From a virus: a stretch of DNA of 32,299 bases. Positions within the stretch are counted from its first letter, which is position 1; every line of letters begins with the position of its first letter. Shown here piece by piece: positions 1 through 18,800 of the stretch. The stretch spans positions 1 through 32,299 of IMG/VR virus record IMGVR_UViG_3300025266_000027; one strand, given 5' to 3'. Both the position numbers and the translations under genes were made by a program. The notes beneath the pieces are model-generated. The model searched no databases. It saw nothing but the letters and a program-made list of their open reading frames with translations, and was not told the origin of the DNA.

Positions 1-3000
1 ACCATTCTCAGCATGCTTAACTTTAGTTAAAGCTTCCATAGTGTTGAGCATTGATAACTCAGGGAACTGATTAAAGTAAGGAAGTCCTTTACCATATTGG
101 AATGGGAAAGTATCTGAAGGGTCTACCTCTCTATATGAAGCAGTAGCTTGTCTATCAAATACAATCTCAGACACTTGATTAAGTGGATTAGCACCTATCT
201 TCTTAGTTCGTACAGTAAACAACCCACCATTGTGCTTGTTTTTTATTCTTGATTCTCCAGTCTTTGAATCTATAGTTACTGTAGCGTTAGGTCCATTCAG
301 TCCTATCTGAAGAACTAAAGCAATCCTTCTATTGTCTAGTTCAGTATCTCCAGTGAAGTTCATTATATGACTTAGCTTTTCTTTCATTATAGCCATATCA
401 TCAGTGAAGTTACTTACAGCTGGGTCGTTTATAGCACTAAACATACTATTCACTTTAGAAGAATAAGCAGCAGACATGTAAGGTATCATAGACTTTCCAG
501 GGTTTTTAGAACCCCAACCAGTTGATAACAAGTCATTAAATACTAAGAACCTCTTAAGGGATTCAGGAAGCTTTTCAAAATCCTTTCTATATATATCAAC
601 ATGCTCAGTAAACTCTAACTCTCGTTGAAGCTTAGCAACATCTATATCAAACTTAATATAATCTGCTATTTGTGTTTTACCTTTCTCTGTTATATAACCC
701 TTAGTAGGCATAATCTTTAGTATACCGTCAGCTCCCAACCATTTGTTCTGATTGTTTGAATGGTCGTTTTGGAACGCTTTAGCTACATTCCCAGCAGCAG
801 TTGTTAGATGTACTAACTTCCCTGCATTTGTTGGTAGTGCAGCAAACTCTTCGTATTTAAGCCCCATTTCCTCCTTAAACATACCACCTAGTTGTAGAAT
901 CTTATTAGATACATCATAACCAGCATGAATAAGAGCTCTTGATAATGTTAAAGCTTTTTGTAGCTGACTTATTAACTCAGGGTTATTAACTAATCCATTT
1001 GAGTTTTTATTAAATATTCCTAAAGGTGTTTCCTCGTCATTAATTTCAATAATCTCTATACCTAAAACTCCTGCAGTACCCTTAACCTCTTTGAAGTTGT
1101 AGTCCCCAAGTAATCCCTTAGCATAACCATTACTTAATTCTATAGACTCTTTTATCGCTTTCTCTATAAGCTTTTGATTTGCCTCTAGTTGTCTGTTATA
1201 TAAAGGGTTGTTTGTTCTTAAGTTTTCATTTATACCTGTTTGTAACTCTAAAGCAGTTAACGCTGCTTGATGCTGTATTAAGTTATCAAGAGGGTTTGCC
1301 GTAAACTTCTTATCTAACCCCACGAATAGGCTTAAATCTTTAAGGTCTTGACCTATCTGACTAGTAACATAATAAAGAAGCATAGCTTTATCATTAACAT
1401 CTTTTTCATCATTCTTAGACTCTTCAGCGATGGAAGGTATGTTAAAAGAAAGACCTACTCCACCACCAAAAACTGATTGTATAACTTGGCTTAAATTTGC
1501 AGGCTCTTCACCTCCTATGTTGTATTCAGCATCTAAGCTCATTGCAGCCTCATTAGCCCTATCGTATATCTCTTTAGAGCTCAACCCTTTAAGGGCAGCC
1601 CAATTCATATCTCTTATATACGTAGATATTTGAGCAGGCTTAATACCATACTTCATCATCATTATAAACTGTCCAGCAGTTTCTTTTATGAATTGGAAGT
1701 TAGCTCTGTTGTTATTTTTACCATCATCTAATACTAAGTTTAAGTACTTACATACCTCATAGTAAGTTCCAGTACCATCTTTTTTAACTACGTTATCTAG
1801 TGTAGTTAAAGTAGATTTATTCGATGCTACAAAATTATTAAATCCTTGTATGTCTTTTTCTGAGCCTAGTTCGTGAATTTGATTAGTATCCCTTTTAACA
1901 AGGAAGTGGTCGCCATCATTAAGCATAGCCCCGTCATGACCATTTTTATAAGCATCTCTATTGTTTTGTAAATCTTCTTGTACTATCTCTTCTTTGTATG
2001 AGTTTTTAATATTTAGCAATACTTCCTGTACCTTCCCTACGTCACTTGATTTAAAGTATAAAGATTTTAATTCGGCTAATAATTTTTTATAATCATCTAT
2101 TGTGTCTCTATAGTCTGTATCATCAAAGGGCTTCATTGCATCACTCTCTGATTCTATCTTAACTATATCATACATTCTTTTTAACTTCTCTATCTTGTTA
2201 AAAATAGACTTATCAGACGGACTAAGTTTGTTTATAGCATTTGGTACAAATCCTTTAAAAAAGTCATCTGGAGCTAGCGGCTCATGATATAAACTTTTTA
2301 TTAGACTTTCATCATACTTATTTTTTAATCCCTCTTTAAAGTTTTTATCAATAGAATTGGTAGGATTTCTTTCAGAAATTATACCGCTTTTAGGAACGTT
2401 AGCTTTAGCAAAAAGAGTTGCTTCTCCTTTTACTGTTGTAAAATATTGATATGTTGAGCTTGAAGCTAATGGGTCTGAGCCTCTATACACAACGTCCTTC
2501 ACTTCACTATTAGGGAATACTGTTTCCAAGAATTCTGAATACTCTTCTGCAGTTCCAATTTCTGATAACTTTTTATTGTTAGAATAAAAATCTAAACCTA
2601 AAGAACTTTTACTAAACCCTTTATCAATTTGAAACTCTATAGCTGTACCATCATAAAGAAGTTCAGGATTACCTTGAGATATATAGTTGTACATAAGGTT
2701 CTGAGATGCAATTATACCAATCATCGGTACATTACCCTTAGTCGTCTCATATATATTACTTGCACCTAATAAACCTAAATCATTATTTACTTCAGTACTT
2801 CCTTCTTCATTTCCAAACAAAGCAAGGTTACTAGATTTTGTAGTAGATTCAATTTCAATCTCTTGAATTAACATATTAACTACAGAAGGTTCTGAATATA
2901 AATCTATAATAGATTGTATAACATCATTCTTAGCGTTCTGCAGGTCTGTTAAGTTCTCTCCAGTCTCTACCATGTTAATGTGTAGCATATCCCCATCGAG

Positions 3001-6000
3001 GTCAGCCCCCATAATAGAAGAAGTCTTAGAGTTAACAGCGATTGTATTACCTTGTTTATCAGATATTTTAGCAACTCTCAATACTACAGTAGAACCTGCA
3101 GATGATGCTGGAATACGAGTGGCAAGAAATAATATCTCTTTACCACTAGTTCTAGCTTTTTCTACATCCTCTTTAGTAACACCTAGCATTTTAGCCATGT
3201 GTTGAGATATAGATGCTTCAGCGTGTGATACTTTTAAATTACCTTCTGTACCACTTACTCTAATAGGTTGCAATGCTTTGTCTGTTTCTACTAACTTACC
3301 CTTATCTGATATTTCAAATCCTTGGATTATATCAGACTCTTGTAAAGATAGAGTCCCCTCAGTTCTTAACTTAAATCCTTTCTTTCTTAACTTAGAATTA
3401 GCCAACTCTAAAACTCTAGCTCTAATAGTAGGTAGAGAATCGTTATCTTCTTGGAACATAACAGCTTGAACAGGAGGCATAGATGATGACTCCATATCTT
3501 GTTTAGCTAATCCTTCGTATGTAAGGCTAGCAATCTCTTCGTCATATTGTAAATCTAAAGCAAGTGCGTAAGCATTCATAACCTTCTGAGAAAGAGCTTG
3601 TACGTTCGTATCCCAGTGGTCAGCAAATACATTCATGTTAGATATACCTTGCTTCGCTACAGTTGCAGAGTTAGCTTCTTTATCTAACTCATTCTGTACA
3701 CCAAAGAACCTACCATCAAATCCTCTAAGATTGTTAACCTCATCATAACCCCACTTATCTAAACGACCATTAAGGTCAAAGTTTCTATCATTTAACTCTT
3801 CTAAAGAGAATGTGTTAACTCCTTTAATGTTAAACTTCTTTACACCACTATCTGCATAAGATAAAACTCTATGGTTCTTTAAACCTTTATCAGAATAAAA
3901 CTTCTCTCTAGCTTTTAATGACTTATACACTCCACTAAGAGGTCCTCTAACCTTATTGTTTAATACAATAGTGTGACCTTTGAAGTAGAATTGATTTGAT
4001 TTCTGACCTGTATGAGAAGCTATCCTTTTGTTGTCTATATTTCTTCCATATCCTACAAGCTTAAATGAGCCCTTAACGTCAGATAAACCACCATGACTAC
4101 CTTCTAGTCTTGTTGCTTCCTCTTGTGTTATGTATGACGCTGAATCAGCAAGTTTAGGAGTTAGTTCTACCTCTTCAAGTTCGCCTGTTTCATAATTAAA
4201 TATTTGTACTTTCTGAGACTCATTTTCGAAATCTAATTTTTGGTCATCAAAAATAATAGTCTCTACTCTGTTACCAGAATAAGAAGAATCGTGTGGAGCA
4301 ATAAGCCCCGTAGAGCGCTTATTCTTCATACTAAAATTCTGCTCTTCCATAGTGTTAGCATTCAAGTCTTGTAACCAAAACTTGTTTACAAAGTAATTCA
4401 TAGAAGCCACAGCATCGAAAGGACTTCTTCCTAACTTATCCATCATGGCTATATGAGTCTCTACATTATTTAAGTATTGAATCTTACCATTTATAGTTTG
4501 TTGGAACGCTAGTTTACCTAATAGGTTAAGCTCTCCTTTTACCTTAGACTTCTGAGTGTCAGAGTTCTTTATTTTATAACCTTCTGATAATAAGCTATCT
4601 ATAGTGGCTTGACTAGTAACATTAAACAAGTCAAAGTCACTGTTGCTATTATGATTAGCTATAATTTCTCTAGTCTTAGCGTTGTGGTAATCTACGACCT
4701 CATCCATCTTGGCTTGCAACTCTGTGGTTACAGCCATTACATACTTTCTCTTAACATTATTTAAAGCTAATAACTTTTGACTTTTAGTAGCGGTTATATC
4801 AACCTCTAACTCTAAGTGCTTATCTATAGCTCTTAATTGTTCTTCAGTAAAGTCATTACGATTGCTTACAGCATTCTCTATAAATATAGCAACACCACCT
4901 TTTAAGTTGTATTGATTGTCTGCAGGAATTAGAGTAGCCTTAGCGTAGTATCTTCTAGACTTATCAGAGTAGTCACGGACGACCTGATTATACTCTTTAG
5001 ACCCAGACTTTAAAGCCCTATTAATTTCATTAATATCTCCTTCAGTAATACCTACACTAGATATGTTTTGTCTATCTAATTCAGATTTTGAATCACCAAG
5101 TAAAGAAAGGAACTCTAACTTATAGTCATCCTCAAGAGCCCTCATAGCATAAGGGTTTTGATACCCTTCGTAAGAGAATAATTCAGCAAAAGCCATTCCG
5201 TCACCCTTATTCATAAAGTCTCTTAGTGAGTCTGCATTGTATTCTAAGAAGTACTTTCTTGTATTAAGATTAAGAGTCTTGTCTTCTGGTGTCAATATAG
5301 TAGACATGTAACCTTCGTTATGCTCTGAATTAAATGTGGCTATAACTGCTTGTGCTAGTTTTTTATGCCCCTGTAAATCATTAAGAGAACTAGAGTTGCT
5401 TGCGCCTTTCTCTTCGGTCACTACAGTATACATAGCAATAGAACCTCTTTCAGAAGTCTTCCATTCTTTTACTATTTCTCTTTCCCATACCCTTCTACCA
5501 GGTTCTATTCCAGAAGAAGAAAAAGACATAAGCCCGTTTTTCTTAGCAAAGTCTTCTTTTTGTTTATCAGTTTTTAACTCTGTAAGTTTAATCTGCCTAG
5601 TAACCTTACCATTCCTTTGGAATTCTGGTACTTTAGGAAATTTAGTTAAACCAGCTTCAGGGAGCGTTTCAACATACTCAACTTGACCTTCTTTATCTGC
5701 AGGGAATTTCTCCATACTATTATAAGCTTCCTCAATCTGCTTTTCAAAGTCGTCTCTAATTTGAGACATAATCTCTTTATCTATAAGCGTGTTGTCTTGA
5801 ATCTTATTTCCACCTATCTTGTTTTTAATATTAGCTATAAAAAACGGCATAAACACATCAGCATTAGCTTTTTTCTTTAAGTCTTCAAGAGAAATATTGT
5901 TATTTTTAACGCTCTCGGCTAAATCAAAACTAATTGATTGGTTATATAAAGCTTTAAGCCTGTCGCCTTCAAAGTACTCTCTAAGCGTAAGGTTCTTTTT

Positions 6001-9000
6001 TGTTTCTTCATCGTATATACGGAACTCATCTAAAGCTAATTCATTGAAATTAAAAGAAGCTCCACTCTCGTTAGTACCAAATGGTAAAAAGAAAGCGTTT
6101 ATAAAATGAAGTAAGTCTTTGTCTCGTTGCCCTTTTTCATATGTGTGTTTAGGAGCGTATACAAGACGTGCTAAATTCCTAGTGTATAGTATTCTTTTTC
6201 TAAGCTGAGATAACATTCCAGCTTGTCTTTCATTTGTAGGTGTTGCATTAACATTCTCAGTTAATAAACCTAATGGTACATTACCTGTTCTTTGTTTATT
6301 TAAAAACTCAGAACCAAACATTACAGCATCCTTAAGAGCAGTCTGTACTCTATTTGCGTCTTGTCTTGACAAAGCAGGAGCGTATCCATCAGCAGTAAGA
6401 AAGAGACCTTTCTCTGTAGTCATAGAGTTCATCTGAAGATATAACCCACCTAATACAGAACCGAATGCCATATTAGCACCTTTCTTTGTGTATGGCACTG
6501 CAGTCTTTGGTAATAATTCATATTGCCCTACTAGAGTTGTAAGGAATCTTGCAACATGCTCGTCCTTATCCTCCATGTAAGTCCAACTCTGACCTGCTTC
6601 TTGAATTCTTAAACCGTCTATAAGGTTATAAGCACTTGTGATAAACTGCTCTTTAGTCTTCCCTTCGGTGAAGTTTTTTATATGGAATAGTAATTTATCC
6701 TTCCCAATTATTCCATCCCTGTTGTAAGTATGACTTACAATTTGTAAATGGAACTCAAGAATAGAATATAACTTATCAGATAATTGCTGAGGGTTATCAT
6801 CTATCATTGCAGAGAATACCTCATCTGCATCAAAAGTTTCCTTATTACCTTCGTTATCAGTAGCTGTTACTTCTTTCTGAGCTTCAGCAAATTTCGCCTC
6901 TAAAGCTTTTATATAAGCGCTATCTGACTCAGACAATCGTTTAGATAAAACCTTAGAAGCTTCAGCTGTAAGCCCTGTAAGGTGTTGATTACGAATAAGA
7001 GCTTTTATAGTCTTCTCGTTGTTCTTAAGTATTTGTAATACTTTGTTGTAATCTTTTGTATTCCAGTAATCAGATAATATATCACTTGCTATATCTACGT
7101 AAGATTTATTTATACTTTCAGTTAGTAATAACTTCTCCTGTATATACTTAGATAATTCTTCAACAGTAAAGTTTTCTTTCTTATCTACTTCAAGCAACTT
7201 GTCAAGTTCATCATTTACAAACTCTTTAGCTCTCTTGTGAACAGAACCCTCTAAGTCGTTTAATAAATACTTAACATCTTCTATTACCCTAGCTTGCTTA
7301 AGTAGTTTCTTATTTAATGACTGTTGAGTTGTAGCAGTGTAAGCACCGTACTTAGCTTTGTTATCAGCTATTAACTTATTAACATTCTTAAACTGTTCCT
7401 CTAAACTTTGCTCTCCATTAGCTTTATACAAGCCTTTAGATACAGCTTCAAAAGCAGACTCTGCTTCTTCTTTAGTAACAGAATCTTTTATTTTTTCTTT
7501 CCAAGCTTTTAGCTTGCTATTGTACTCTGTCTTGTTTTGACCAGAAATGAATAAATCTTGATTAACAGAACCATACAAACCACCTAACTTAGCTAAAGCT
7601 TCATCTTGTATATGTACTTGTGCTTCTTCTTCTAACTCAACAAATCCTGCTTGTGTTAGCACATTTAAAGAAGACTCATAGAACTCTTTACGTAATTTCT
7701 CTGTAATATCTTTCCCATTATCTAAGGCATACTTCTCTACGGAAGTTACAACATTAAATAACTCTTGTTGAGATGCATTCTCTTGCTTAAGCTTTAAGTA
7801 TTCTAAAGCTTCTTCTTGAGTCATTGTATTCTTATTACCTTCCTTATCTACAAAGAAGTACAAAAGCTCTTCTTGGTAATCTAGTCTAGTTGTCTTGTAT
7901 ACAGGCTGACCTACTACGGACAGCATCATATCTTTAACTTCTTTTAGATGCCCATAAAGCATTCTAAATATGTGAAAGTTCTCGTGAAATATAGCTTCTT
8001 CAGCACTGTCTGTCGCAGCGTCTGGGTTAATAAACACCCCTAATCCCATTGCGTAAGCAGCACCTTCATCGCCCCTACTATATATCTCATCTAAAAACTG
8101 TACGGAAATTAATCCGTCTGCAGATTTCTTTGCATATAAATTAGCAAGAGTTCTTTGCGAACCTTTACCCATTGTATACGCTCTACGTATTTTACGTCTA
8201 TGTAAAGCAGCTTCAACCTTATCTACTATTCTTACGGCTCTCTCTTTATTAAAGAACGCTTTAATAATACCAGTTGTAGCGTCTAAAGCTAACTTTGCTG
8301 TAGCTTTTAAGTTGCTACCAGTCAAGTACTTAGGTATAGTTTCCTTACCTTTTTCTTCTACTTTCTCTTCTGCTTTTACTTCAGGCTTATAGTTTTCTAT
8401 ATCAGCCTTAGTAAGTCTACCATTTTTACCCTTACCATTACCTATTAAACCAGACTCTTCTAAGTCTATACCTAGCTTATTAGCTAAGGCTAGTGCCGAA
8501 GGAGATATAACCTTTCCTTTAAATTGACTATTCTTCTCAGTTAGATTTTTCTCTTTCTCCTCTTTTGTGTCTTTTTCGTCTCTAGCTTTTTCCTTCTCTT
8601 CTCTAAGAGCTTTCTCTTTCTCTGTCTTAGCTTCGCTTTTCTCTTTAGCCTTCTTCTCTATCTCAGATAAGTTCTCATCAAGTGTATCAGTCTTCATTTC
8701 AACTGAACCATCAGGAGATACAGTTATAACACTTAAAGTATTATTCTTCTCATTCCTTTTAGTATATACATAAGTACCATCTTTTGAACTAGCAGCGTTA
8801 GCTTTATGACCTTTAAACTTTCTACCTGCTTTCTTTTTTGCAGCTTTTAATGCATTAGACTTTTGACCTTCTAATTTCCTCTTACCATAAAACTCTTTAG
8901 CTTTATCATCTGAAGTTGTTAAAGCTTGTTCTTCAGCAGTTAAGGCTTCACCCTTTAACTCCTTCTCTAATATACCTTCTAGCTTCTTACCTGTATCTTT

Positions 9001-10986
9001 CTTCCAGGTTTCTTCATCTGTCCTAACCTTAGCTTCGCTATATATTTCATTTATCCTAGATTCAGTAGCACTAACTATATCTTCTTGAGCTTGCAAGGAA
9101 GCCTTGGTTAGTTCTTTTAATCCATTAATTTCTATATCAGCACTAGGTTGGTCTAATGGACCATCATCCACTTGAGCTTGAATTTCATCAATCTTAGCTT
9201 GAAGAGCTTCTTTTTGTTTATTTAACTGAACTTTACTTGTACTGTTTAGCCAAGAGTTATAAACTAATTCAGTCTTACCTTTATTATCTAAGGTACTACT
9301 AGGCTTACCATCCATAGCAGCTTTAATCTCATCAAAAGTACCCTTGTAAGAGCTGTGCTGTTCTTCTGATATATTACCAGAATCTAATTTAGATTGGAAA
9401 AAGTCTAATATAACTTGTTCATCTCCTTGTTTTACAGCGTTAAGAATCATAGTATGAGCTGCAGCATCTCTACCCCAGTTACTAGCTTCTTCAGCGTTTA
9501 ACTCCTCTATAACTTCTTTCTGACTTATTGTACCGTCTTCATTAGTTACATTAACCTTACGCTTAGTTCTGTATACTCCTTCATCTAAATCCTTCTCAAA
9601 TATCTTAATCATTTCATGAGACTCATTTCTCTCATCTATAGCAGTCTGTAGTGTAGTTCTGTTTTCTGTAGCTGTTCTAATAGTATTACTAGCACCAGAC
9701 ATAAGTAAACTTGTAGCAAAAGAAAGAACCCTTGTAGGTCTTTGTTCGTCTGCTAAAAAGAAATCTAAGTAATCAGGAAATTCATCCCCCTCACCTTTAG
9801 CTTCTGCTATCCTTCTTTGTACAGACCAGTCTTGAAACACCTCTTGGAATTGCTCTACAACACCATCAGTAATACCATGAATCGCACCCATCCCAATAGC
9901 CTTAAATGAACTACGAATAACATCATTCATTCCTGGAGCTTTTAAAGCACTAACTCCTGACTTTGCAGCTGCTTTACCAGCAACACCAGCAACAGCCTTA
10001 GCCGTGCTAGTACCTGCGAATTTAGCACCTAACTTCTGTGCACTTGCCATAGCACCTTTACCAATACCCATTTGTCCCATAAACAAACCATACTGAACAA
10101 TATCAGCACCCATAGACGCAAGGTTGTCTCTATATACTAAACTCGCAGCATTCATTGCTTCCGCTTCAGTAAGACCTTGTTTGACACCTTCATTTAATGT
10201 CTGTCCTGCTAATGCAGCACCTTCTATAAGGTTAGCTGTAGCACCCGCAGATACAGTTGAGATACCAGCGGTTATTAAACCTCTAGCTACTAATGGGTCA
10301 GCATATTTAGTTATACCTATAGACTTAGAACCTTTAGCTATAGCTGCAGCAGCCTTAGTAAACTTACGACCTTTAGTCGCCATACCTGCTAATTTAGCAG
10401 CACCCGTAGCAGGAATCATTAATGATAAAGCAAACGGAAGCATACGAGCTACGCCCGTTCCCCAGAAATCTATATCAGATAAATCATCCCAAGTTACATT
10501 TTCTAAGTCCGCTAATCCAGGAACGTCATCACCATAAGACTGTAAGTAGTCAGCAAAACCATGCAATGAATCAGAAATAGGTTTAGATGTGTCTGTGCCA
10601 TATACTTGTTGAGATATTTCAGAAGAAGTACTACCTCCCATGAAGTCAGCTATGTCACCAAAGCTATCCACCATATCACCTAAACCAACAACAAACGATT
10701 TACCAGCCATTTCAAACCAGTTCATATCCTCGTCTATTTCAACCTTTGGTTGCTCTGGTTGCCTCCACGCTGTAGTAGCGTCCTGTATAGCTTCGTTTTC
10801 TAGATTTAAATTTCGTCTATAAACAGGCACATCATCTTGGGGAACATCCAAACCCTCCGAAGAAGAGGGTTCATTAAACGAACTATCTAAAGAGGAGTCG
10901 TACTGTTGTACTCCTTCTTTAGGTTCGTCTATATTCCAAAAATCATTTGATGGTTGTATTGTCGGTGCTAACTTCTTCTCTTCCAT
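1..10986 (-). CDS. Giant virion polyprotein: membrane region, E3-binding-like domain, Zn-protease motif and DxDGD RNA polymerase (3' end outside window)
   Basis: The ATG is at 10986-10984 and the frame stays open for 3662 codons to the left edge, so the C-terminus is missing. Layout by residue: 1-80 acidic and disordered; about 175-345 Ala/Gly-rich with hydrophobic helices; 763-822 Lys/Glu-rich; 826-866 resembles a peripheral-subunit-binding domain; 867-885 a second charged linker; 1001-1005 HENFH with a possible third ligand at E1039/E1040; 2623-2680 TRIP...GADLDGD, an RNA polymerase catalytic loop. Crassvirales are known to carry giant virion RNA polymerases with a DxDGD loop, injected with the DNA to transcribe early genes; this protein is inferred to do the same. 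The protease may cut the polypeptide into cargo pieces (inference). It starts 8 bases after the stop of the 577-aa cargo gene and closes the ejection gene cluster. The leader is A/T-rich with no Shine-Dalgarno. The RNA polymerase call is firm; boundaries of other domains are approximate. Confidence 0.88.
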   Translation of the reverse strand, partial: MEEKKLAPTIQPSNDFWNIDEPKEGVQQYDSSLDSSFNEPSSSEGLDVPQDDVPVYRRNLNLENEAIQDATTAWRQPEQPKVEIDEDMNWFEMAGKSFVVGLGDMVDSFGDIADFMGGSTSSEISQQVYGTDTSKPISDSLHGFADYLQSYGDDVPGLADLENVTWDDLSDIDFWGTGVARMLPFALSLMIPATGAAKLAGMATKGRKFTKAAAAIAKGSKSIGITKYADPLVARGLITAGISTVSAGATANLIEGAALAGQTLNEGVKQGLTEAEAMNAASLVYRDNLASMGADIVQYGLFMGQMGIGKGAMASAQKLGAKFAGTSTAKAVAGVAGKAAAKSGVSALKAPGMNDVIRSSFKAIGMGAIHGITDGVVEQFQEVFQDWSVQRRIAEAKGEGDEFPDYLDFFLADEQRPTRVLSFATSLLMSGASNTIRTATENRTTLQTAIDERNESHEMIKIFEKDLDEGVYRTKRKVNVTNEDGTISQKEVIEELNAEEASNWGRDAAAHTMILNAVKQGDEQVILDFFQSKLDSGNISEEQHSSYKGTFDEIKAAMDGKPSSTLDNKGKTELVYNSWLNSTSKVQLNKQKEALQAKIDEIQAQVDDGPLDQPSADIEINGLKELTKASLQAQEDIVSATESRINEIYSEAKVRTDEETWKKDTGKKLEGILEKELKGEALTAEEQALTTSDDKAKEFYGKRKLEGQKSNALKAAKKKAGRKFKGHKANAASSKDGTYVYTKRNEKNNTLSVITVSPDGSVEMKTDTLDENLSEIEKKAKEKSEAKTEKEKALREEKEKARDEKDTKEEKEKNLTEKNSQFKGKVISPSALALANKLGIDLEESGLIGNGKGKNGRLTKADIENYKPEVKAEEKVEEKGKETIPKYLTGSNLKATAKLALDATTGIIKAFFNKERAVRIVDKVEAALHRRKIRRAYTMGKGSQRTLANLYAKKSADGLISVQFLDEIYSRGDEGAAYAMGLGVFINPDAATDSAEEAIFHENFHIFRMLYGHLKEVKDMMLSVVGQPVYKTTRLDYQEELLYFFVDKEGNKNTMTQEEALEYLKLKQENASQQELFNVVTSVEKYALDNGKDITEKLRKEFYESSLNVLTQAGFVELEEEAQVHIQDEALAKLGGLYGSVNQDLFISGQNKTEYNSKLKAWKEKIKDSVTKEEAESAFEAVSKGLYKANGEQSLEEQFKNVNKLIADNKAKYGAYTATTQQSLNKKLLKQARVIEDVKYLLNDLEGSVHKRAKEFVNDELDKLLEVDKKENFTVEELSKYIQEKLLLTESINKSYVDIASDILSDYWNTKDYNKVLQILKNNEKTIKALIRNQHLTGLTAEASKVLSKRLSESDSAYIKALEAKFAEAQKEVTATDNEGNKETFDADEVFSAMIDDNPQQLSDKLYSILEFHLQIVSHTYNRDGIIGKDKLLFHIKNFTEGKTKEQFITSAYNLIDGLRIQEAGQSWTYMEDKDEHVARFLTTLVGQYELLPKTAVPYTKKGANMAFGSVLGGLYLQMNSMTTEKGLFLTADGYAPALSRQDANRVQTALKDAVMFGSEFLNKQRTGNVPLGLLTENVNATPTNERQAGMLSQLRKRILYTRNLARLVYAPKHTYEKGQRDKDLLHFINAFFLPFGTNESGASFNFNELALDEFRIYDEETKKNLTLREYFEGDRLKALYNQSISFDLAESVKNNNISLEDLKKKANADVFMPFFIANIKNKIGGNKIQDNTLIDKEIMSQIRDDFEKQIEEAYNSMEKFPADKEGQVEYVETLPEAGLTKFPKVPEFQRNGKVTRQIKLTELKTDKQKEDFAKKNGLMSFSSSGIEPGRRVWEREIVKEWKTSERGSIAMYTVVTEEKGASNSSSLNDLQGHKKLAQAVIATFNSEHNEGYMSTILTPEDKTLNLNTRKYFLEYNADSLRDFMNKGDGMAFAELFSYEGYQNPYAMRALEDDYKLEFLSLLGDSKSELDRQNISSVGITEGDINEINRALKSGSKEYNQVVRDYSDKSRRYYAKATLIPADNQYNLKGGVAIFIENAVSNRNDFTEEQLRAIDKHLELEVDITATKSQKLLALNNVKRKYVMAVTTELQAKMDEVVDYHNAKTREIIANHNSNSDFDLFNVTSQATIDSLLSEGYKIKNSDTQKSKVKGELNLLGKLAFQQTINGKIQYLNNVETHIAMMDKLGRSPFDAVASMNYFVNKFWLQDLNANTMEEQNFSMKNKRSTGLIAPHDSSYSGNRVETIIFDDQKLDFENESQKVQIFNYETGELEEVELTPKLADSASYITQEEATRLEGSHGGLSDVKGSFKLVGYGRNIDNKRIASHTGQKSNQFYFKGHTIVLNNKVRGPLSGVYKSLKAREKFYSDKGLKNHRVLSYADSGVKKFNIKGVNTFSLEELNDRNFDLNGRLDKWGYDEVNNLRGFDGRFFGVQNELDKEANSATVAKQGISNMNVFADHWDTNVQALSQKVMNAYALALDLQYDEEIASLTYEGLAKQDMESSSMPPVQAVMFQEDNDSLPTIRARVLELANSKLRKKGFKLRTEGTLSLQESDIIQGFEISDKGKLVETDKALQPIRVSGTEGNLKVSHAEASISQHMAKMLGVTKEDVEKARTSGKEILFLATRIPASSAGSTVVLRVAKISDKQGNTIAVNSKTSSIMGADLDGDMLHINMVETGENLTDLQNAKNDVIQSIIDLYSEPSVVNMLIQEIEIESTTKSSNLALFGNEEGSTEVNNDLGLLGASNIYETTKGNVPMIGIIASQNLMYNYISQGNPELLYDGTAIEFQIDKGFSKSSLGLDFYSNNKKLSEIGTAEEYSEFLETVFPNSEVKDVVYRGSDPLASSSTYQYFTTVKGEATLFAKANVPKSGIISERNPTNSIDKNFKEGLKNKYDESLIKSLYHEPLAPDDFFKGFVPNAINKLSPSDKSIFNKIEKLKRMYDIVKIESESDAMKPFDDTDYRDTIDDYKKLLAELKSLYFKSSDVGKVQEVLLNIKNSYKEEIVQEDLQNNRDAYKNGHDGAMLNDGDHFLVKRDTNQIHELGSEKDIQGFNNFVASNKSTLTTLDNVVKKDGTGTYYEVCKYLNLVLDDGKNNNRANFQFIKETAGQFIMMMKYGIKPAQISTYIRDMNWAALKGLSSKEIYDRANEAAMSLDAEYNIGGEEPANLSQVIQSVFGGGVGLSFNIPSIAEESKNDEKDVNDKAMLLYYVTSQIGQDLKDLSLFVGLDKKFTANPLDNLIQHQAALTALELQTGINENLRTNNPLYNRQLEANQKLIEKAIKESIELSNGYAKGLLGDYNFKEVKGTAGVLGIEIIEINDEETPLGIFNKNSNGLVNNPELISQLQKALTLSRALIHAGYDVSNKILQLGGMFKEEMGLKYEEFAALPTNAGKLVHLTTAAGNVAKAFQNDHSNNQNKWLGADGILKIMPTKGYITEKGKTQIADYIKFDIDVAKLQRELEFTEHVDIYRKDFEKLPESLKRFLVFNDLLSTGWGSKNPGKSMIPYMSAAYSSKVNSMFSAINDPAVSNFTDDMAIMKEKLSHIMNFTGDTELDNRRIALVLQIGLNGPNATVTIDSKTGESRIKNKHNGGLFTVRTKKIGANPLNQVSEIVFDRQATASYREVDPSDTFPFQYGKGLPYFNQFPELSMLNTMEALTKVKHAENG
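2947..3120 (-). other. RNA polymerase catalytic motif (TRIP ... GADLDGD) in the giant protein
   Basis: Residues 2623-2642 begin TRIPASSAGSTVV and residues 2660-2669 read MGADLDGDML; the three catalytic aspartates would be D2662, D2664 and D2666. The loop corresponds to the NADFDGD loop of the largest subunit of cellular RNA polymerase and to the DxDGD loop of crAss-like virion RNA polymerases, where it lies in a double-psi beta-barrel. The upstream RIP...S segment and a downstream NVPMIGIIASQN segment also match the pattern I recall from giant crAss-like proteins. Confidence 0.88.
7867..7986 (-). other. HExxH zinc-metalloprotease motif in the giant protein
   Basis: Residues 1001-1005 are HENFH, preceded by the helix-forming AEEAIF and followed by hydrophobic helix residues (IFRMLYGHL). 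An EELL at residues 1039-1042, about 34 residues after the second His, could give the third zinc ligand expected for a gluzincin-type enzyme. Zn-protease domains have been reported in crAss-like giant proteins. Likely roles are self-processing or cleavage of host or virion targets; the sequence does not decide between them. Confidence 0.62.
8389..8511 (-). other. Peripheral-subunit-binding (E3-binding) like domain in the giant protein
   Basis: Residues 826-866 read SPSALALANKLGIDL, then a Gly-rich loop, then GRLTKADIENY. This matches the hallmark pattern of the E3-binding domain of 2-oxo acid dehydrogenase E2 subunits: S-P-x-A, LA-x-x-LGIDL, a G-x-G loop, then G-R-[IL]-x-K-x-D-[IV]. The usual loop is lengthened by a few residues (GNGKGKNG). 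The domain is a roughly 40-residue two-helix binding module. Its partner here is unknown: it could dock another virion protein or a host dehydrogenase complex. Confidence 0.7.
8521..8685 (-). other. Lys/Glu-rich charged arm before the E3-binding-like domain
   Basis: Residues about 768-822 of the giant protein are almost entirely Lys, Glu, Ala, Arg and Asp (for example KEKALREEKEKAR), predicted to be a single long charged helix or coiled coil. A shorter arm of the same kind (residues 867-885) follows the E3-binding-like domain, so the small domain is held between two charged linkers. Confidence 0.7.
9952..10464 (-). other. Ala/Gly-rich hydrophobic region of the giant protein (residues ~175-345)
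   Basis: This segment encodes hydrophobic stretches (for example LPFALSLMIPATGAA near residues 183-197, and GLITAGISTVSAGA near 236-249) alternating with Ala/Gly/Lys-rich amphipathic pieces such as KAVAGVAGKAAAK near 330-342. There is no signal peptide at the N-terminus. Such regions occur in phage ejection proteins that insert into the host envelope during DNA delivery. A channel or membrane-anchoring role is inferred from composition and neighbours only. Confidence 0.55.
10851..10871 (-). other. Hairpin inside the 5' coding end of the giant gene
   Basis: On the minus strand AACCCTC is followed by a 7-base loop and GAGGGTT, a perfect 7-bp stem in codons 39-46. The core resembles the terminator hairpin at 23630-23651 (same CTTCTTCGGAG centre), but only a short T run follows and the sequence encodes Ser/Glu residues in frame, so it is probably not a terminator. 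Confidence 0.4.
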
Positions 10987-10994
10987 AATTATTT

Positions 10995-12728
10995 TTAAGC
11001 CTTTTGTATTTTATTTCTTAACTCGTCTACCATTTTAAGGTAGCTTGACGCTTGTTCCGAACTAGCTCCAAGTCCCATCAATACTTTATAGTAAGCATCA
11101 AAGAAAACTTTACTGTCGCCTTTCATTAAAGCATCGTTTAGTTCAGGGAAATCGTTATTGTTAAACCTTTCAGAAAGGCCACTGATTCCTTTATCCATAT
11201 CTCCGTCAAGAGCAGCTAAAGATAATAAAATACTTTTAGTAGTGTTGTCCTTTCTTTTCTCTCCAAGACCTAAAGTTTGCATAACTCTATTTACCTTAGA
11301 GTCGTAGTTAGGTAGTTGTGCGGATATTTCTTCTATACTAGAATCAAACCCTATGTTAGCGATAGCAGTAGGAGCTGGTTGTTCAAACGAAGCACCAGCA
11401 GTATACCTAGCTAAACCTGCGCTTTCACCAGCTTTTAAAGACTCATAAACAGACATAACCTTAGCGTCGTTAGGGTCTATTTCGTTGTAGAAATAACTAT
11501 TAAACCACAAGACATCATCACTTTCGTACTCTTGTATAAGAGCATGTTCAGCATCTTTAGGTTCTCCTTCTAAATCTTCAGCCTTAACTAACTTGTAAGA
11601 ACCGTCAGACTGCTTAAGTTTGTAACCCATAAAGATAGCACCAGGCCTTATGTCACCTAAGTCATCTCCTGGAGTTACAGTGCCACCATCTTCATCGTAC
11701 CACATACCTTTAGCTTTAACATCTGGTATAAACCCTTCAAGGTCTACAACCTTTTCAACACCTAAAGAAGCTTTAGCCATATCAAGTTCATCACCGACAA
11801 ACCCTCTATTACCCATTATCTCAGTGTTCTCAGGATTGATTCCATATTCAAAACCACCCATATCATAATCACCTAAAGCTACTTTGTGGTCGTTAGAGTT
11901 CTTGCCTATCAAACTTGTGCTAATAGGTTTAAGTCTTCTGTGTTGTCTTTGTATTCTACCAGACACTGCTTTACTAATTTGTAGTTCACCGCTTGGTTGT
12001 AATGACTGTTCTGGGTTAATACCACCTATGTAAGACGCTGTATACCTTCTTAATTCATCTATAGGAATATCCATAGCCTCAGATTGAGTTAGGTCGTATT
12101 CCTTCATATAGTTTCCTGTAAATATCTGCATGTTAGAACCTTGATTTAAGAATCTATCAGCCTTAGTATTACCCTCTACGTCATTACCTGGTTCTTCCCA
12201 TTGAGATAACTGTCTATGCTTGAATGTATCTATGTCACCATTCATGAAAGCATCAAACTCTCTCCTAACTTGATTAGGTATAAGGTGAGCAAGCTTCCCA
12301 TTATCACTCTCTTGTTGTTCGTAGAATTGCTGTACCTGAGATGTGTTACCTTTAATTCTTTTAGCGTCCTCTGAAAATGCTATGTTGTTATAGAAATTCT
12401 TCATGGTTTTTCTACCACCAGAATTCATAAACTTAATAGGGTCGTTACCAGACTTCTCTAATTCAGACAAGAAGGTATCCTTCTCTTGGTCGTACATAGC
12501 TTGGATTCTTTCTTTATCCTCATTACGTATAGCAACCTGGCTAGACATGTCATGGATGTGTTGCATCCACTGGTCCATCTCTTGCGTCTTAGCATCTTCA
12601 TTTGCTTGCATTTGACTTTGAGCCTGCTGCAACTGCATAGCTTGACCTAGTTCAGCTTGAGCTCTATCTCTTCTAGCTCCTGAACCAACCCAACCATTAA
12701 GTGCACTATTTACTTTAGAATAATCCAT
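10995..12728 (-). CDS. Coiled-coil virion cargo/ejection protein candidate (577 aa)
   Basis: I do not recognise a named family. The N-terminal ~110 residues are rich in Gln, Glu, Met and Ala (AQAELGQAMQLQQAQSQMQ), typical of a long coiled coil; the middle is mixed; the C-terminal ~150 residues look helical. There is no signal peptide, no clear membrane segment and no catalytic motif. The start codon overlaps the stop of the 720-aa gene by one base (TAATG), suggesting translational coupling, and the giant gene starts 8 bases after its stop. Its place between a transglycosylase-bearing protein and the giant RNA polymerase protein argues for an internal virion (cargo) protein ejected with the DNA. 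Function is inferred from context only. Confidence 0.72.
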   Translation of the reverse strand: MDYSKVNSALNGWVGSGARRDRAQAELGQAMQLQQAQSQMQANEDAKTQEMDQWMQHIHDMSSQVAIRNEDKERIQAMYDQEKDTFLSELEKSGNDPIKFMNSGGRKTMKNFYNNIAFSEDAKRIKGNTSQVQQFYEQQESDNGKLAHLIPNQVRREFDAFMNGDIDTFKHRQLSQWEEPGNDVEGNTKADRFLNQGSNMQIFTGNYMKEYDLTQSEAMDIPIDELRRYTASYIGGINPEQSLQPSGELQISKAVSGRIQRQHRRLKPISTSLIGKNSNDHKVALGDYDMGGFEYGINPENTEIMGNRGFVGDELDMAKASLGVEKVVDLEGFIPDVKAKGMWYDEDGGTVTPGDDLGDIRPGAIFMGYKLKQSDGSYKLVKAEDLEGEPKDAEHALIQEYESDDVLWFNSYFYNEIDPNDAKVMSVYESLKAGESAGLARYTAGASFEQPAPTAIANIGFDSSIEEISAQLPNYDSKVNRVMQTLGLGEKRKDNTTKSILLSLAALDGDMDKGISGLSERFNNNDFPELNDALMKGDSKVFFDAYYKVLMGLGASSEQASSYLKMVDELRNKIQKA

Positions 12729-14890
12729 TAGTTTGTTGTGTTTTTAGCGTTTGCTGCTGCTTCTTTATCTATTGCTGCTTGCTGTTCTGGTGTTATGTTT
12801 GCAGTGGTAATCTTTTGATTTAGTAAAGAGGTATCATAACCATCATCTTTACCTTTTTTTCCAGACAAGTTTTTTATTAGGTCTTCTGTAGCTTTCCTGT
12901 TAGGATTCATGTAGTATGATACATCACTAATAGCATCTGACAATAAGTTACTACCAACTCCAGAAAGTATTTGTCTGTTATTACTTAGTGTAGCTTGTCT
13001 CATTTGCTCTACGTTCATATCTCTGTTTAACTTCATAGAGCCTACAGATGTAGCTAAAGAGTTATACTCCTTTATGTTCTCTCTGTGGACAGCTGCGTCT
13101 TGTGCGGCTAATTGATTAAGTCCTTGTATACGCTGTGCATCTACAGTTCCTTGATTAGCTAAGTACATACCTCTTTGACCTCCTGAAGCTCTTAATACAT
13201 TCTTCATAGCTCCTGCATAAGCATCACCCATGTTCTGCATTGCAGCACCCTTTTCCTTAGCCGTAAGACCCGACTCTGATAATGCTTTTTGTTTTGATAA
13301 AGCTTCATATATTAAAGGGTCTAATTCAGGCGTTTCAACATCTGGTGCTCTTAATGCTTGAGACAAAGATAGTATTCCTGCAGCAGCTTTCAAACCTGTT
13401 AGAGCCATTTCTGCTTTACGCATTTGACCTTCTCTCTTTTCAGCGTTTGCTGCATTAAGCTTATCTTGATTTACTTTGTCTTCTGCGGCTTGTTTAGCTT
13501 TAACTTGTTCCTCTGTGATTAAAGTTCCATCCTCATTGTAAGAGTCAGTATCTTTAAGCATTTGCTTAATACGAGCATCATGGTCTTCCTCTCCCTGTGC
13601 TATTCTAAGAGCCTTATTTGTAGCGTCTTGCTCTGCAGCATCTCCAGCTATAAGACCCGTTTCAACCTCAGTTCTTTCTGCTGTTTCTTCAGTTGCTTTA
13701 ACAGCAGGACCTAAGCCTCCAGTTTCGTCAATCCTAACTAACGAATCGTCTGTAGCTTGAACATTTAAAGAATTACGTAAAGCATCTCCTTCTTTATTTA
13801 TTACAGCAAGAGCAACTTTTTCATCTTCAGTTAAAGAATCAGGGTCTTTCTTATTCTTTAACATTAAAGCTATATCAGCATCAGTCATAATACCTTTAGT
13901 GTTCTTAGAGGCTTCTGTGGCTTCATAAAACACTTCATGATTATTTAACTGAGCATTGTATAGGTAGTCGCTTTCTTGTTCCGTTAATGACTCGCCATTA
14001 GCTTCTTTTCTAAGTAAGTCTTCAATTTTTTCTTTGTCTCCATCTGCACTATAATCGTAATCTGAAGCCACATTCTTTCTAACTTCTTTCTCAGGCTCTT
14101 CTTCTTTTTTCTTTTTTGCAGCTTTTTTAGCTTTCGCTTTATCGTTTACTTCCTTTACAGCTTTTAGTATAACATCTTCTGGATTGTCTGAATTAGCCCA
14201 GTCAACCAATTTACTAACTCCAGAATCTACATCTTCTTTTGTTACGCTGTAATCCTTATCCTCTTCTTCTTCTTCTTCTTCTTCTGGTTCTTCTATAGTT
14301 TCAGACCAACCAGCAACTTGAGGGGTATATGTAAAGAATTCTGGACTACCTCCAAAGTTAGCCATACTGTCTGTGGTAACAGAGCCGTCCTCATTTTGCC
14401 ATCCTGGATTCTGTTCAGCAGCGTCACTTCCTGCTTCGTATATAACTTTATCCCCAGCCTTACCTACACTTGAAGGTGCTGCTATAGAGTTGTATATCTG
14501 ACCTGGTTTACCGCCTTTCTTTTTGAAATTCTCAGTAAAGTAACCTTCAACAACATCTAATTGCTCAAGAGTAGTCATAGCCTCTAAGTCTGAAGACTTA
14601 TAGAAAGTACCATTTACAGTTTTACCACCCTTACCTTTGTCAGTTCCAGTCCCAACGAACTGTATTAAACCAACAGCACTACCTCCAGCTAGATTCTTCT
14701 GAGCAGGAGAATAACTACCAGCAGTTTCTTTTTCAATAGCATGAAGTATCTCGTCAGGGCTAACACCCATAGATTCAGCTATACTATTAATCTTATCGTT
14801 AACCCCTTCCTCTTTCAAGAATGCAGCTCTGTTTTTTGCTTTCTGTGACTTTGTAAGGTTTGTCCCTTTAACTATAGCTTTATTACTCAT
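12728..14890 (-). CDS. Virion protein with N-terminal lytic transglycosylase (SLT-like) domain (720 aa)
   Basis: Residues 30-140 look like a lysozyme-fold lytic transglycosylase: MGVSPDEILHAIEKETAGSYSP holds the putative catalytic Glu (E55, in an E-T-x-G-x-x-x-P context), GLIQF at 74-78 fits the family's G-L-M/I-Q-F motif, and IYNSIAAPS at 132-140 fits the late motif. Residues 200-215 are very acidic, with eight Glu in a row at 203-210. The middle is Lys/Glu/Asp-rich and helical, and the C-terminal ~230 residues are Ala/Gln/Met/Asn-rich. There is no signal peptide or holin-like segment beside it, so it is probably not a lysis enzyme; virion-borne transglycosylases open the peptidoglycan locally for DNA entry. 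The gene starts 2 bases after the 314-aa gene stops. The catalytic domain is well supported; the rest is unassigned. Confidence 0.83.
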   Translation of the reverse strand: MSNKAIVKGTNLTKSQKAKNRAAFLKEEGVNDKINSIAESMGVSPDEILHAIEKETAGSYSPAQKNLAGGSAVGLIQFVGTGTDKGKGGKTVNGTFYKSSDLEAMTTLEQLDVVEGYFTENFKKKGGKPGQIYNSIAAPSSVGKAGDKVIYEAGSDAAEQNPGWQNEDGSVTTDSMANFGGSPEFFTYTPQVAGWSETIEEPEEEEEEEEDKDYSVTKEDVDSGVSKLVDWANSDNPEDVILKAVKEVNDKAKAKKAAKKKKEEEPEKEVRKNVASDYDYSADGDKEKIEDLLRKEANGESLTEQESDYLYNAQLNNHEVFYEATEASKNTKGIMTDADIALMLKNKKDPDSLTEDEKVALAVINKEGDALRNSLNVQATDDSLVRIDETGGLGPAVKATEETAERTEVETGLIAGDAAEQDATNKALRIAQGEEDHDARIKQMLKDTDSYNEDGTLITEEQVKAKQAAEDKVNQDKLNAANAEKREGQMRKAEMALTGLKAAAGILSLSQALRAPDVETPELDPLIYEALSKQKALSESGLTAKEKGAAMQNMGDAYAGAMKNVLRASGGQRGMYLANQGTVDAQRIQGLNQLAAQDAAVHRENIKEYNSLATSVGSMKLNRDMNVEQMRQATLSNNRQILSGVGSNLLSDAISDVSYYMNPNRKATEDLIKNLSGKKGKDDGYDTSLLNQKITTANITPEQQAAIDKEAAANAKNTTN
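14261..14284 (-). repeat. In-frame GAA microsatellite (8 Glu codons)
   Basis: The minus strand has eight consecutive GAA/GAG codons encoding Glu203-Glu210 of the transglycosylase protein. It lies at the junction between the enzymatic domain and the helical body. Slippage by whole codons would change spacer length without breaking the frame. Confidence 0.75.
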
Positions 14891-14892
14891 AT

Positions 14893-15837
14893 CTATTTAT
14901 GTTTCCAAGTTGTCATTTCATTTTGAACTGCTTTACCAGCTTCTTGGTATTTACCACCAGCCAATAAATTCTTAACCTTACCCATGAATGGTTTATCAAA
15001 TACTCCCTCACCACCAGTGAGTTCCATACCTGTAGGCTTGCCACTCTTGTCTACTACAGTAAGAGGGTTGGATGAATGGCTATAAGCCCCTTTAGTCATA
15101 CCACCTGTTTTGTAGGTATTCATATATGTTTTCCTATCTTCCAAAGGTGTATTCTCATAATCTCGTTCTACGTTAGTTCTAAACATTTCTAAACGGTCTT
15201 TACTTGGAAGACTCACCTTAGTATTGTCAGAGTACGTACTATTGAACTGATTAAAGAAATCGTCTTTAAAATCATCTCCTTGTATTTTTCTCATAAAGGC
15301 TGCCTCTGCTTCGTACTTTGCTTTTATCTTTCTGTAAGCAGGGTCTTGTTCGTATTCCATTTGCTTGTTAGGCTTTATAGTCCCACCTTCTTGGTATCCA
15401 GCAAATTCTTCTTGGTCTTGCATAAAAGAATCAAAACCTTCTTGTTGTTGTTTCTTTTGTTCAATCTTTTTTTCTTCTTTTTGAAACTTATTCTTTTTAA
15501 TAAGACCAACACCAAGTCCAACGAGTGCACCAACACCAGCACCTACAGGGCCTGCTGCAGCTCCCATTTGAGCAAACTGTACTGCTGAACCTGCTACATC
15601 AGCATTATCGTAATCAGGATTAGTATCTAAAGCTGAAATAACAGAGCCAGCTGCACCTAATCCAGCACTTAACTGATTAGCAGTGTTTTCTTTCTTTCCA
15701 GCTTTAGCTGCGTCAGCTGATGCTATTTGTTCTGGGGTAAGACTACCTCCTTCAGTATATTTTTGAGTTACTCCGCCTCCGTAATATAAGTTGTTAGCTA
15801 ATTTCTTCTCTTGCTCAAACGATAAATCTTTTATCAT
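14893..15837 (-). CDS. Virion/ejection protein candidate with glycine-zipper membrane segment (314 aa)
   Basis: No named family is recognised. Residues 91-113 are a Gly/Ala/Val-rich hydrophobic stretch (GAGVGALVGLGVGLI) ending in KKNK, a glycine-zipper-type membrane segment. Residues 114-135 are a Lys/Glu/Gln helix. Short GG motifs recur (YYGGG at 18-22, EGG at 30-31, EGG at 150-152, TGG at 244-246). The C-terminal part has GGMTKGAYSH then ELTGGEGVFDK, resembling the GG...G.SH...E.GGE.V.NK pattern I recall from phage tape-measure and internal proteins. The ATG overlaps the stop of the muzzle-type gene as ATGA, so translation is probably coupled. Neighbours suggest a membrane-active cargo protein acting at DNA ejection; this is inference. 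Confidence 0.7.
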   Translation of the reverse strand: MIKDLSFEQEKKLANNLYYGGGVTQKYTEGGSLTPEQIASADAAKAGKKENTANQLSAGLGAAGSVISALDTNPDYDNADVAGSAVQFAQMGAAAGPVGAGVGALVGLGVGLIKKNKFQKEEKKIEQKKQQQEGFDSFMQDQEEFAGYQEGGTIKPNKQMEYEQDPAYRKIKAKYEAEAAFMRKIQGDDFKDDFFNQFNSTYSDNTKVSLPSKDRLEMFRTNVERDYENTPLEDRKTYMNTYKTGGMTKGAYSHSSNPLTVVDKSGKPTGMELTGGEGVFDKPFMGKVKNLLAGGKYQEAGKAVQNEMTTWKHK

Positions 15838-18800
15838 GTCGTAGTTCTATTATGTATTAAAGTACCAAACAACTCTATTAAACCTGTATTTGTACTTTGT
15901 GTTCTTATAATTAAATATTGCCCTGTTGCTTTTGCAGTACCAGCAGTATTTGTTATTGGTATTATGTGTTTACCGTTTGCTGTTCTACTTAGAGTTGCGT
16001 TACTAGCAAAAGAGGAATTACTAACTGAGTCTGTAAATGTAAAAGTAGTAAATTTTTGTGCATTTTCATTTCCAGATAAATACATGACTAATTTATCAAA
16101 CTTTTTAGAAGAGTATACATTCTCATTACAAACAAAAGTTACATCTAAACTATATGTATTGTTTACTTCGTAATAGCTTATATGACTTGTATTAACGTCT
16201 TCTCTATACACTTTTGACAAGTCTATAGAACTTGTGGCATTGTTTCGTCCTACAGTTAGCAATTCACCTGGCAAATTAAAAGCCATTGCTATTACATCTT
16301 CTTTCTTAGTTATCATTAAATCACGCAACTCACTGTAAACCATGTGCGTAACACTAGCATTATTTGCTGTCGTAATACATATACCAACTTCGTCGAAAAC
16401 TTTATTGTTATACAATGAAATTCCTCCTACTGCATAATCAAGAGGTTTATCCCCTATAGAAGAATTTTTTAAAGCATTAAATATGTTAGAGTTTTGTGTT
16501 GTTAAACCTAAATCTTGAACAACAATACCTTTACCAAATACTAATTTACAAAAAGACGACATATTTGAATCAAACCAATATGCTGATGTATTTGTAATCA
16601 TCATGTTATTAAAATGTTGACTACCATACAATGTATCTATATAATCACTACGTTGTATAATTTGACCAGTTCCTGTTACAATAGTTACAGCTGCTGCATC
16701 TGCATTATCTACAACTACTCTTGGGTTTATAGATAATTTGCTAACACCTTTTGTTTGTAGAGCAAATAATTCGTTTCTTAAATTAAATAAATTAAAGATA
16801 GCACCCTTATTATTATCTAGTTCGTGAATTTCATTAGCATCAAATGTCGAGTAAGCATCAAATAAATCACCCGCTAACTTAATGTTAGAAGCTGCTATTA
16901 AATTTCCGTAATTATTAACATCTTTAAAGTTTGTTGGTTTTGGTAAAAAAGTTTTTGTGCTATTACGACATGAGTATGTTTCGTTAATTAAAAAATTATC
17001 ATGTACAGATGGTGATACATCATCAGTTGAACCAAAGAAAACACCATCTCTTAAATCTATATTTATAGATGATTCTACAGGGAACATAATAGCTGTAGAT
17101 GGGTATGATTTAGAACTACTAAACGTAGTAGAGCCTGTTTTAAATTTTTGCAATGAATACATGTTAACGTAAGTATCCCCTCCAAATATTTTATCTCTAT
17201 TAGACGTGCTTGGACTAAAGTTGACGTGACCTGTAGATATGTATTGATTATTTTCGTAGTTAGATGTTAAGCTACCTCCATACTGAGAGGCTTCTACGTT
17301 TCTTCTTATTTGCGTGTACAATTTAGATGCAAAACATTTTTGTGCTGAATCTTGGTCACCAGATTTTAAATTTAACATAAAAGGCGAATACGTAGAATCA
17401 TTTGAATCTGAAGCTATATCAAAATTTGCATGCCTAATTTTATCATTTTGTGAATCACCTAAAGATATAAAAATACTGTCTACACCAAACATAGTTGTAT
17501 CTCCTGTGTTCGATTCTTCTCCTGATTCATATTTTTCAGTAGTAAGAGCTGTAGGCATGTGTCGAAACACTTTATCGTCTGATTGAAATCTTGTCCTATT
17601 AGTAAAGCTTTGATTAACACGACCAGTGCCATTATCGTCATGACCCATTCTTGATTTATTTATAGTCTCTCCTGGAGCTACGTTTGAACCATATTGAATA
17701 GTATTAAAACCTTCTGCCTCAGTTGCTTGATTTATAGCAACAGCACTACATTCGTAACTTGAATAAATTGTTTTATTTGAAAATTGGTACGATTTAAGTG
17801 CCGCGTTAGATTTAGGGTCAAATCTACCTGCTAAAATTCTACTTCTATATGTTAATGTAGTACCAGTAGTAGCAATATTTATTTTGTTTTTTAAATGATG
17901 AAAATCATCATCTGTAACTTCATCGTTGTGAGTAATATTATCACTATTCGTAACTTGAGCTCCAGCATCTAATCTTCCAACTACCTTGAGTGTATCTGTA
18001 GATTTAGATGAATATTGTAATTTTCCTAACGTGGATTCTGGTGTGTCAAATAAAAAGTCTGTATGAGACAAGGTCTCAAAACCCTGTAAGGGTGTGTATA
18101 TGTTTCCATAGTGTGTACCGTTTTTATGTCTTAATGATTCATTACCCTCTACATTTGCATGTATAATAATTTGATTTAAAACACCAGAAGCTAAAACTGA
18201 TTTATCACTTTCTGTTCTATCTACACGTACTATTGAATAGCCCCCAATTTTATCTAAAATTGATTGTGCAAGTTTAACTTCAAAATTAGGAAATAAAGCA
18301 AAACCATTTACATCATCAGTTAATGTATCAAATGTTAGCGTAGTATTACTTCCTTGAGATAATGTGTTTTGATTTAAAGTAACAGTAGTACTGCTTATTG
18401 ATATTACTGAAGTATTTTTTGGTATACCTGTACCTGTCACAACATCGTTTACGTTAATAGCAGAAACTCCTGCACTTCTAACAAATGTGTTTGCACCACT
18501 ACTAAAAACACAACCACTTAAAGGCGTAGGTATATTACCTGCGTGTTTAAAAGTCGTAACACCATCATCACTTGTAGTCCTTCTGTTACCGCTAGCGTCT
18601 ATGCTTAAATAATCCATAGTACCATCAGGCATACGAATATCGCCTATTGGTTTTACAAAAGTAGGATTTCCTTGAGTATCATAAAATAAAATACCAAATC
18701 TATATATTTCACCCCTTTGATAGCCAGTAAATTTTGATGTAAATAAAGGGTCTTTGTAGTTTTCAAAACTACCATTATCGTTTTTTGTTATATACCCATA

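Follow-up and report, generated by a model that had tools for sequence, protein, structure and literature searches.

The analysed window comprises the whole of the IMG/VR record IMGVR_UViG_3300025266_000027 (32,299 nucleotides), and it raises the question of whether a metallopeptidase motif and a virion RNA polymerase (RNAP) are encoded in one polypeptide and, if so, what the peptidase would do there. The genes under consideration are the following:

1..10986, minus strand: giant cargo open reading frame (ORF), residues 1-3662, an open frame whose 3' end is cut by the contig end
10995..12728, minus strand: gene of 577 aa, equated with cargo protein C2 (gp46) from its position only
12728..14890, minus strand: gene of 720 aa, equated with cargo protein C1 (gp45) from its position only
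15834..20576, minus strand: Crassvirus muzzle protein (Pfam PF25731, E 2.5e-117)

Extent, relatives and neighbourhood of the giant gene

The giant ORF is read through 3662 codons without a stop and runs past the contig end, in agreement with the original prediction of a single uninterrupted frame of at least 3662 residues carrying both HENFH (residues 1001-1005) and GADLDGD (2660-2666), each of which occurs once in the chain. When the chain was shuffled, HExxH appeared in 4.8% and DxDGD in 6.7% of the copies; with a chance occurrence of about 5-7% for each motif, their presence alone means little and conservation must carry the claim. Relatives of the same lineage, designated here by L numbers, were gathered by scans of IMG/VR contigs. 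FHENFH was kept in 13/13 aligned family members reaching the site and DLDGD in 11/11, at 34-95% identity to the window, and both motifs are therefore judged to be real; the spacing between them ranges from 1457 to 1661 residues across the family. Both motifs lie in one frame in 10 other IMG/VR contigs, 7 of which hold complete copies of 4048-4701 aa (L003, 4701; L047, 4627; L010, 4424; L015, 4174; L014, 4172; L044, 4062; L016, 4048), with L014 and L015 being nearly identical and possibly one species. Since all members reaching each site keep both motifs, the union of protease motif and polymerase in one chain is a stable property of the lineage. An error of sequencing or assembly fusing two genes, an artefact named beforehand as one that would refute the prediction, is ruled out by these homologues with the same fused frame and has a negligible probability; the contig does end inside the gene, but nothing was found in favour of a joined-gene artefact.

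The closest complete copy, that of L003, is 94.6% identical to the window and continues for 1034 residues beyond the window end, suggesting that the complete giant of the window would measure about 4,700 residues. Identity between the two is mosaic, with blocks of 99-100% alternating with blocks of 81-92% (residues 601-800, 1201-1500, 1701-1900, 2501-2700, and 3201-3400), which points to recombination among close relatives.

The assignment to Crassvirales holds, given the muzzle gene located four genes upstream of the giant, the giant RNAP downstream, and tblastn matches to phi14:2 and gut crass phages. The 577-aa and 720-aa genes gave no significant homology to C2 and C1 by hhalign. In L005, L012, L013, and L047, the gene at the C2 position before the giant (581-588 aa) bears DLDGD at about residues 333-391 in some copies and lacks it in others, which is probably due to chance or to a metal-binding loop. 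The host was sought through bacterial genome contigs, among which no relative was found.

Domain organization of the giant protein

When the whole chain and its slices were compared with Pfam, PHROGs, and NCBIfam, the sole match was an E3-binding domain, and tblastn of parts of the giant against annotated phages returned no match. The elements distinguished along the chain, all on the minus strand, are listed below in order from the N-terminus.

9607..10749, minus strand: N-terminal region, residues 80-460, conserved, rich in Gly/Ala and hydrophobic in part (invariant residues, hydrophobic segment)
8473..8733, minus strand: Glu/Lys-rich low-complexity linker, residues 752-838 (composition)
8395..8508, minus strand: E3-binding/peripheral-subunit-binding domain, residues 827-864 (Pfam PF02817, E 1.8e-6)
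7537..8199, minus strand: probable zincin-like metallopeptidase, residues ~930-1150 (profile of published Crassvirales zincins)
7972..7986, minus strand: HENFH, residues 1001-1005, invariant (family alignment)
7600..7602, minus strand: E1129 of the invariant IQDE, a candidate for the third zinc ligand (alignment, from which the role is inferred)
1327..4839, minus strand: RNA polymerase region as modelled, residues 2050-3220 (template-free model, hmmsearch)
2989..3009, minus strand: GADLDGD, residues 2660-2666, catalytic DxDxD motif, invariant (alignment with the phi14:2 RNAP)
1813..2613, minus strand: in-frame insert of 267 residues, ~2792-3058 (missing from relatives except L003)

The polymerase was expected to be of the virion type, and this was borne out. 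The family profile matched phi14:2 gp077 (GenBank numbering), the crystallised virion RNAP 6VR4, by hmmsearch, with DLDGD placed on DFDID 1361-1365 and followed by a second collinear block. In hhalign against the crAss001 gp50 family, the catalytic slice scored 88% (E 2.9e-6) and the block after it 46%, while PDB sequence profiles showed no match to the RNAP region. Residues 2050-3220 were also modelled with AlphaFold without templates, from 11 sequences. The model is of moderate to low confidence, with a mean pLDDT of 50; it matched 6vr4_A first among PDB structures (E 2e-4, probability 1.00, 774 columns), then large subunits of RNAPs and p97 N domains, the latter likewise containing a double-psi barrel. 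The RNAP part matches the phi14:2 virion RNAP in its predicted fold and weakly in sequence. Because the model matches 6VR4 first and RNAP large subunits next, a double-psi barrel is predicted at D2662; of the two barrels originally proposed, the catalytic one is supported, and the second was not separately identified within the 774-column match.

The N-terminal region contains many invariant positions at residues 101-450 of the family alignment, and its hydrophobic segment (179-203, mean Kyte-Doolittle 1.38) has Gly/Ala-rich stretches on both sides. This single segment lends weak support to the membrane-type N-terminus of the original prediction, and residues 80-460 are probably the ejection or membrane part. 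The E3-binding domain (best E 1.9e-7 for the profile against E2 structures) adjoins the zincin and was found in some relatives only, being missing from L009, L010, L014, and L015. The usual home of this domain is in the E2 proteins of 2-oxoacid dehydrogenases; here it perhaps serves as a docking module.

The region around HENFH is probably a zincin, judging from profile comparisons. The HExxH preceding the RNAP in published Crassvirales takes the form HEA[FWY]H or HEGFH, with a conserved E..AE.F some 40 residues further on. The zincin profile of crAss001 gp47/Suoliviridae aligned with the window family at HENFH by hhalign (68% over 49 columns), and of the 60 slices into which the giant was cut, the one with HENFH alone matched (65%, the next best being 2.8%); this match appeared once slices were trimmed to the core, and longer slices gave none. 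With HExxH masked, the best alignment was weak and its register unchanged, suggesting that the similarity is largely carried by the motif. The distance from HExxH to the candidate third ligand is about 125 residues in the window family compared to about 40 in other Crassvirales zincins; in such zincins, the two helices that bind the metal are described as separated by variable inserts (PMC5512222). E1129 sits in a predicted helix of a poor AlphaFold model (residues 815-1210, 10 sequences), which found no match in the PDB and had a pLDDT of about 61 overall and about 40-60 near HENFH. The literature search found no statement on a Crassvirales zincin; one may be annotated in the founding paper of 2018 or in that of 2021 on the phi14:2 RNAP, both outside the search.

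The in-frame insert follows the catalytic barrel and precedes the next conserved block of the RNAP, a stretch where the model carries no confidence. It is shared by the window and L003 only; L004 (88% identical) lacks it, as do the remaining relatives. Its DNA is 99.7-100% identical between the window and L003, within a similarly high-identity block of the otherwise mosaic gene. An intein was ruled out, as the insert neither starts with Cys/Ser nor ends in HN. The insert bears motifs resembling those of ADP-ribosyltransferases (ARTs), namely VVYRG at 2832, YFTT at 2848 (YFTT..EA..FA), and GHDG at 3016 (GHDGAML...VKRD), which recall the LYHG, FFT, and GYDGAIV...VVKRD of the ART in the Roseovarius podovirus vRNAP, with R replacing the catalytic H; the pattern was picked after the sequence had been seen. 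The best blastp alignment with the Roseovarius vRNAP (E 0.026) falls at the GxDG strand of the ART, and without composition correction its score was no better than that of shuffles. Neither ART-PolyVal PF18760 (at E<=10) nor annotated phages searched by tblastn matched the insert. An ART-like domain inside the RNAP of the window and L003 is a doubtful reading, kept as a lead, for which no precedent within a Crassvirales-type RNAP was found in the literature. If true, one injected chain would combine an RNA polymerase, a peptidase, and an enzyme able to modify host proteins. In phage T4, Alt modifies the host polymerase.

Further domains had been anticipated in the missing 3' end, and the 1034 additional residues of L003 do end in one: its last 500 aa are homologous to the C-terminus of the crAss001 gp49 family (hhalign 97.2%, E 3.9e-11, 381 columns). 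The giant of L003 is followed by genes of 170, 241, and 1189 aa, and no gp49-like gene was recognised directly after it in a check against Pfam. Given the gp49-like end, with no separate gene recognised, the lineage appears to carry a gp47-type zincin, a gp50-type RNAP, and a gp49 C-terminus in one chain.

The same pairing in other phages

The joining of protease and polymerase, originally regarded as unusual, is the normal layout in the giants of Suoliviridae and also occurs in N4 vRNAP and P23-45 gp96. Giant RNAPs of up to ~6000 aa are a hallmark of the group (2023 review, PMC10136315). In Suoliviridae, cr118_1 (4946 aa), cr10_1 (4460), cr115_1, cr52_1, cr273_1, cr6_1, and cr4_1 bear both motifs, with HExxH preceding DFD[IV]D by 1431-1876 residues on a single chain, in the same order as in the window; HExxH was kept in 8/8 giants examined. 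Several of these were translated through in-frame stops, which are expected in recoded crass phages (PMC7886860). Like the window, the Suoliviridae giants (cr118_1 gp14, cr10_1 gp32, cr115_1 gp52, cr4_1 gp26, and others; ~4,400-5,800 aa) have a muzzle gene upstream. In contrast to the window, they have 1734-2587 residues rather than ~1000 before the zincin, usually encode the gp49-like protein as a separate following gene, and carry DFD[IV]D and HEA[FWY]H/HEGFH in place of DLDGD and HENFH.

In Steigviridae, on the other hand, the zincin and the RNAP are encoded by separate genes. The single chain of the window corresponds to three genes in crAss001 (gp47, gp50, and gp49) and in phi14:2 (gp078, gp077 (6VR4), and gp076); the RNAP and, by profile, the crAss001 gp47 zincin are homologous to those of the window, and the gp49 C-terminus to the end of the L003 giant. 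The crAss001 zincin makes up the C-terminal end of gp47, whose gene adjoins those of the RNAP; it is homologous to the zincin of the cr118_1 giant (blastp E 1.3e-6). Mass spectrometry found crAss001 gp47, gp49, and gp50 in virions, and crassvirus cargo proteins, including RNAP-associated ones, are present in virions and modelled as ejected ahead of the DNA (PMC10172136). In phi14:2, gp078 lacks HExxH, which occurs in gp076 instead. A second, distinct HExxH domain (HEIMH, HEIVH, or HELLH) was observed at the N-terminus of gp49-like proteins in L018 (phi14:2 gp076, residue 245), L021, L024, L028, and L050, with a likeness to the N4 vRNAP zincin of 66.5% by profile.

When comparing to other phages, the vRNAP of N4/Schitoviridae is likewise a giant injected RNAP with an N-terminal entry part, a low-complexity linker, and an HExxH domain, the HExxH being located in the C1 domain (PMC12633501); it differs in being a T7-type single-subunit enzyme rather than a two-barrel one, with the main zincin after the RNAP. 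In this group, the vRNAP of Roseovarius Plymouth podovirus 1 also bears an ART domain, along with two HExxH motifs. Thermus phage P23-45 gp96 combines a two-barrel vRNAP and a metallopeptidase in a single 5,002-aa chain (PMC10770324), but it is a tape-measure protein of another phage type with the RNAP at its N-terminus. The polyvalent proteins of Iyer et al. 2017 (PMC5512222) resemble the window in being large multidomain injected proteins built around zincin-like peptidases, with ARTs and RNAPs; their RNAP cases are N4-like, and crass phages are unmentioned in the main text. Unrelated injected polymerases, T7-like in the case of N4 and two-barrel in that of crass phages and P23-45, are all joined to an HExxH domain in one chain. 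What is new here is an uncharacterised Crassvirales lineage that extends the fused form and puts zincin, RNAP, and the gp49 end on the same chain, together with an insert in the polymerase.

Possible role of the peptidase

We consider it probable, with some reserve, that the giant is a virion-packaged transcription protein of this lineage with the peptidase as a co-delivered accessory enzyme; its packaging, injection, peptidase activity, and target are what we infer. From homologues in other phages, it would be expected to reside in the capsid and to leave it before the DNA or together with it; the two-barrel RNAP, active at D2662-D2666, would then start early transcription. The parts would be arranged as a conserved, partly hydrophobic N-terminus, a charged flexible linker, the E3-binding module in some members, the zincin-like metallopeptidase (H1001, H1005, and probably E1129), ~850 poorly conserved residues, the RNAP, and the gp49-like C-terminal domain seen in L003. 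The peptidase would act inside the cell or upon entry into it, on host or entry-related proteins, rather than as an obligatory RNAP maturation protease; we give such post-delivery action an even chance. The options for peptidases of this class comprise cis-processing before or in the capsid, domain release after injection, and attack on host proteins, so that self-processing and host-protein attack had both been proposed by 2017 (PMC5512222).

The main alternative is a self-processing polyprotein, in which the zincin cuts the chain in cis at packaging or after ejection and frees the RNAP from the N-terminal entry part. The retention of FHENFH in 13/13 members and of HExxH in 8/8 Suoliviridae giants would also fit this, as would the charged low-complexity linkers, the gene boundary ~180 residues past the zincin in crAss001, where such a cut would fall, and the precedent of P1 DdrB, which is processed before packaging, a role having been proposed for such peptidases (PMC5512222). 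However, in Steigviridae the two domains are already on separate chains, and DAC15, which has the RNAP (DFDID), has three large cargo proteins in which neither HExxH nor HExxxH occurs. Obligatory self-processing is less likely given this cargo and the HExxH-bearing N4 vRNAP, which is packaged unprocessed (PMC5512222), and we regard the alternative as possible yet unlikely. DAC15 gp078 is homologous to crAss001 gp47 (E 3e-15; PDDEXK-like region, 6e-10) and stops soon after the PDDEXK-like region, the terminal zincin being missing, while phi14:2 gp078 ends in a weak GNAT-like stretch. The gp47-type end is therefore variable in Steigviridae, as would suit an accessory effector more than a protease required for maturation.

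A domain that has no catalytic activity or is chiefly structural, acting in encapsidation or polymerase regulation, is rather improbable. In N4, the region with the HExxH domain is needed for encapsidation (PMC5512222) and the C-terminal domain, HExxH included, inhibits the polymerase (PMC12633501), but HExxH and the downstream Glu are invariant down to ~34% identity in the window family, beyond the needs of a purely structural helix. No demonstration of the function of the HExxH domain in injected polymerases was found in the literature; the contrast provided by DAC15, and that between split and fused Crassvirales, make the question testable in cultured laboratory phages.
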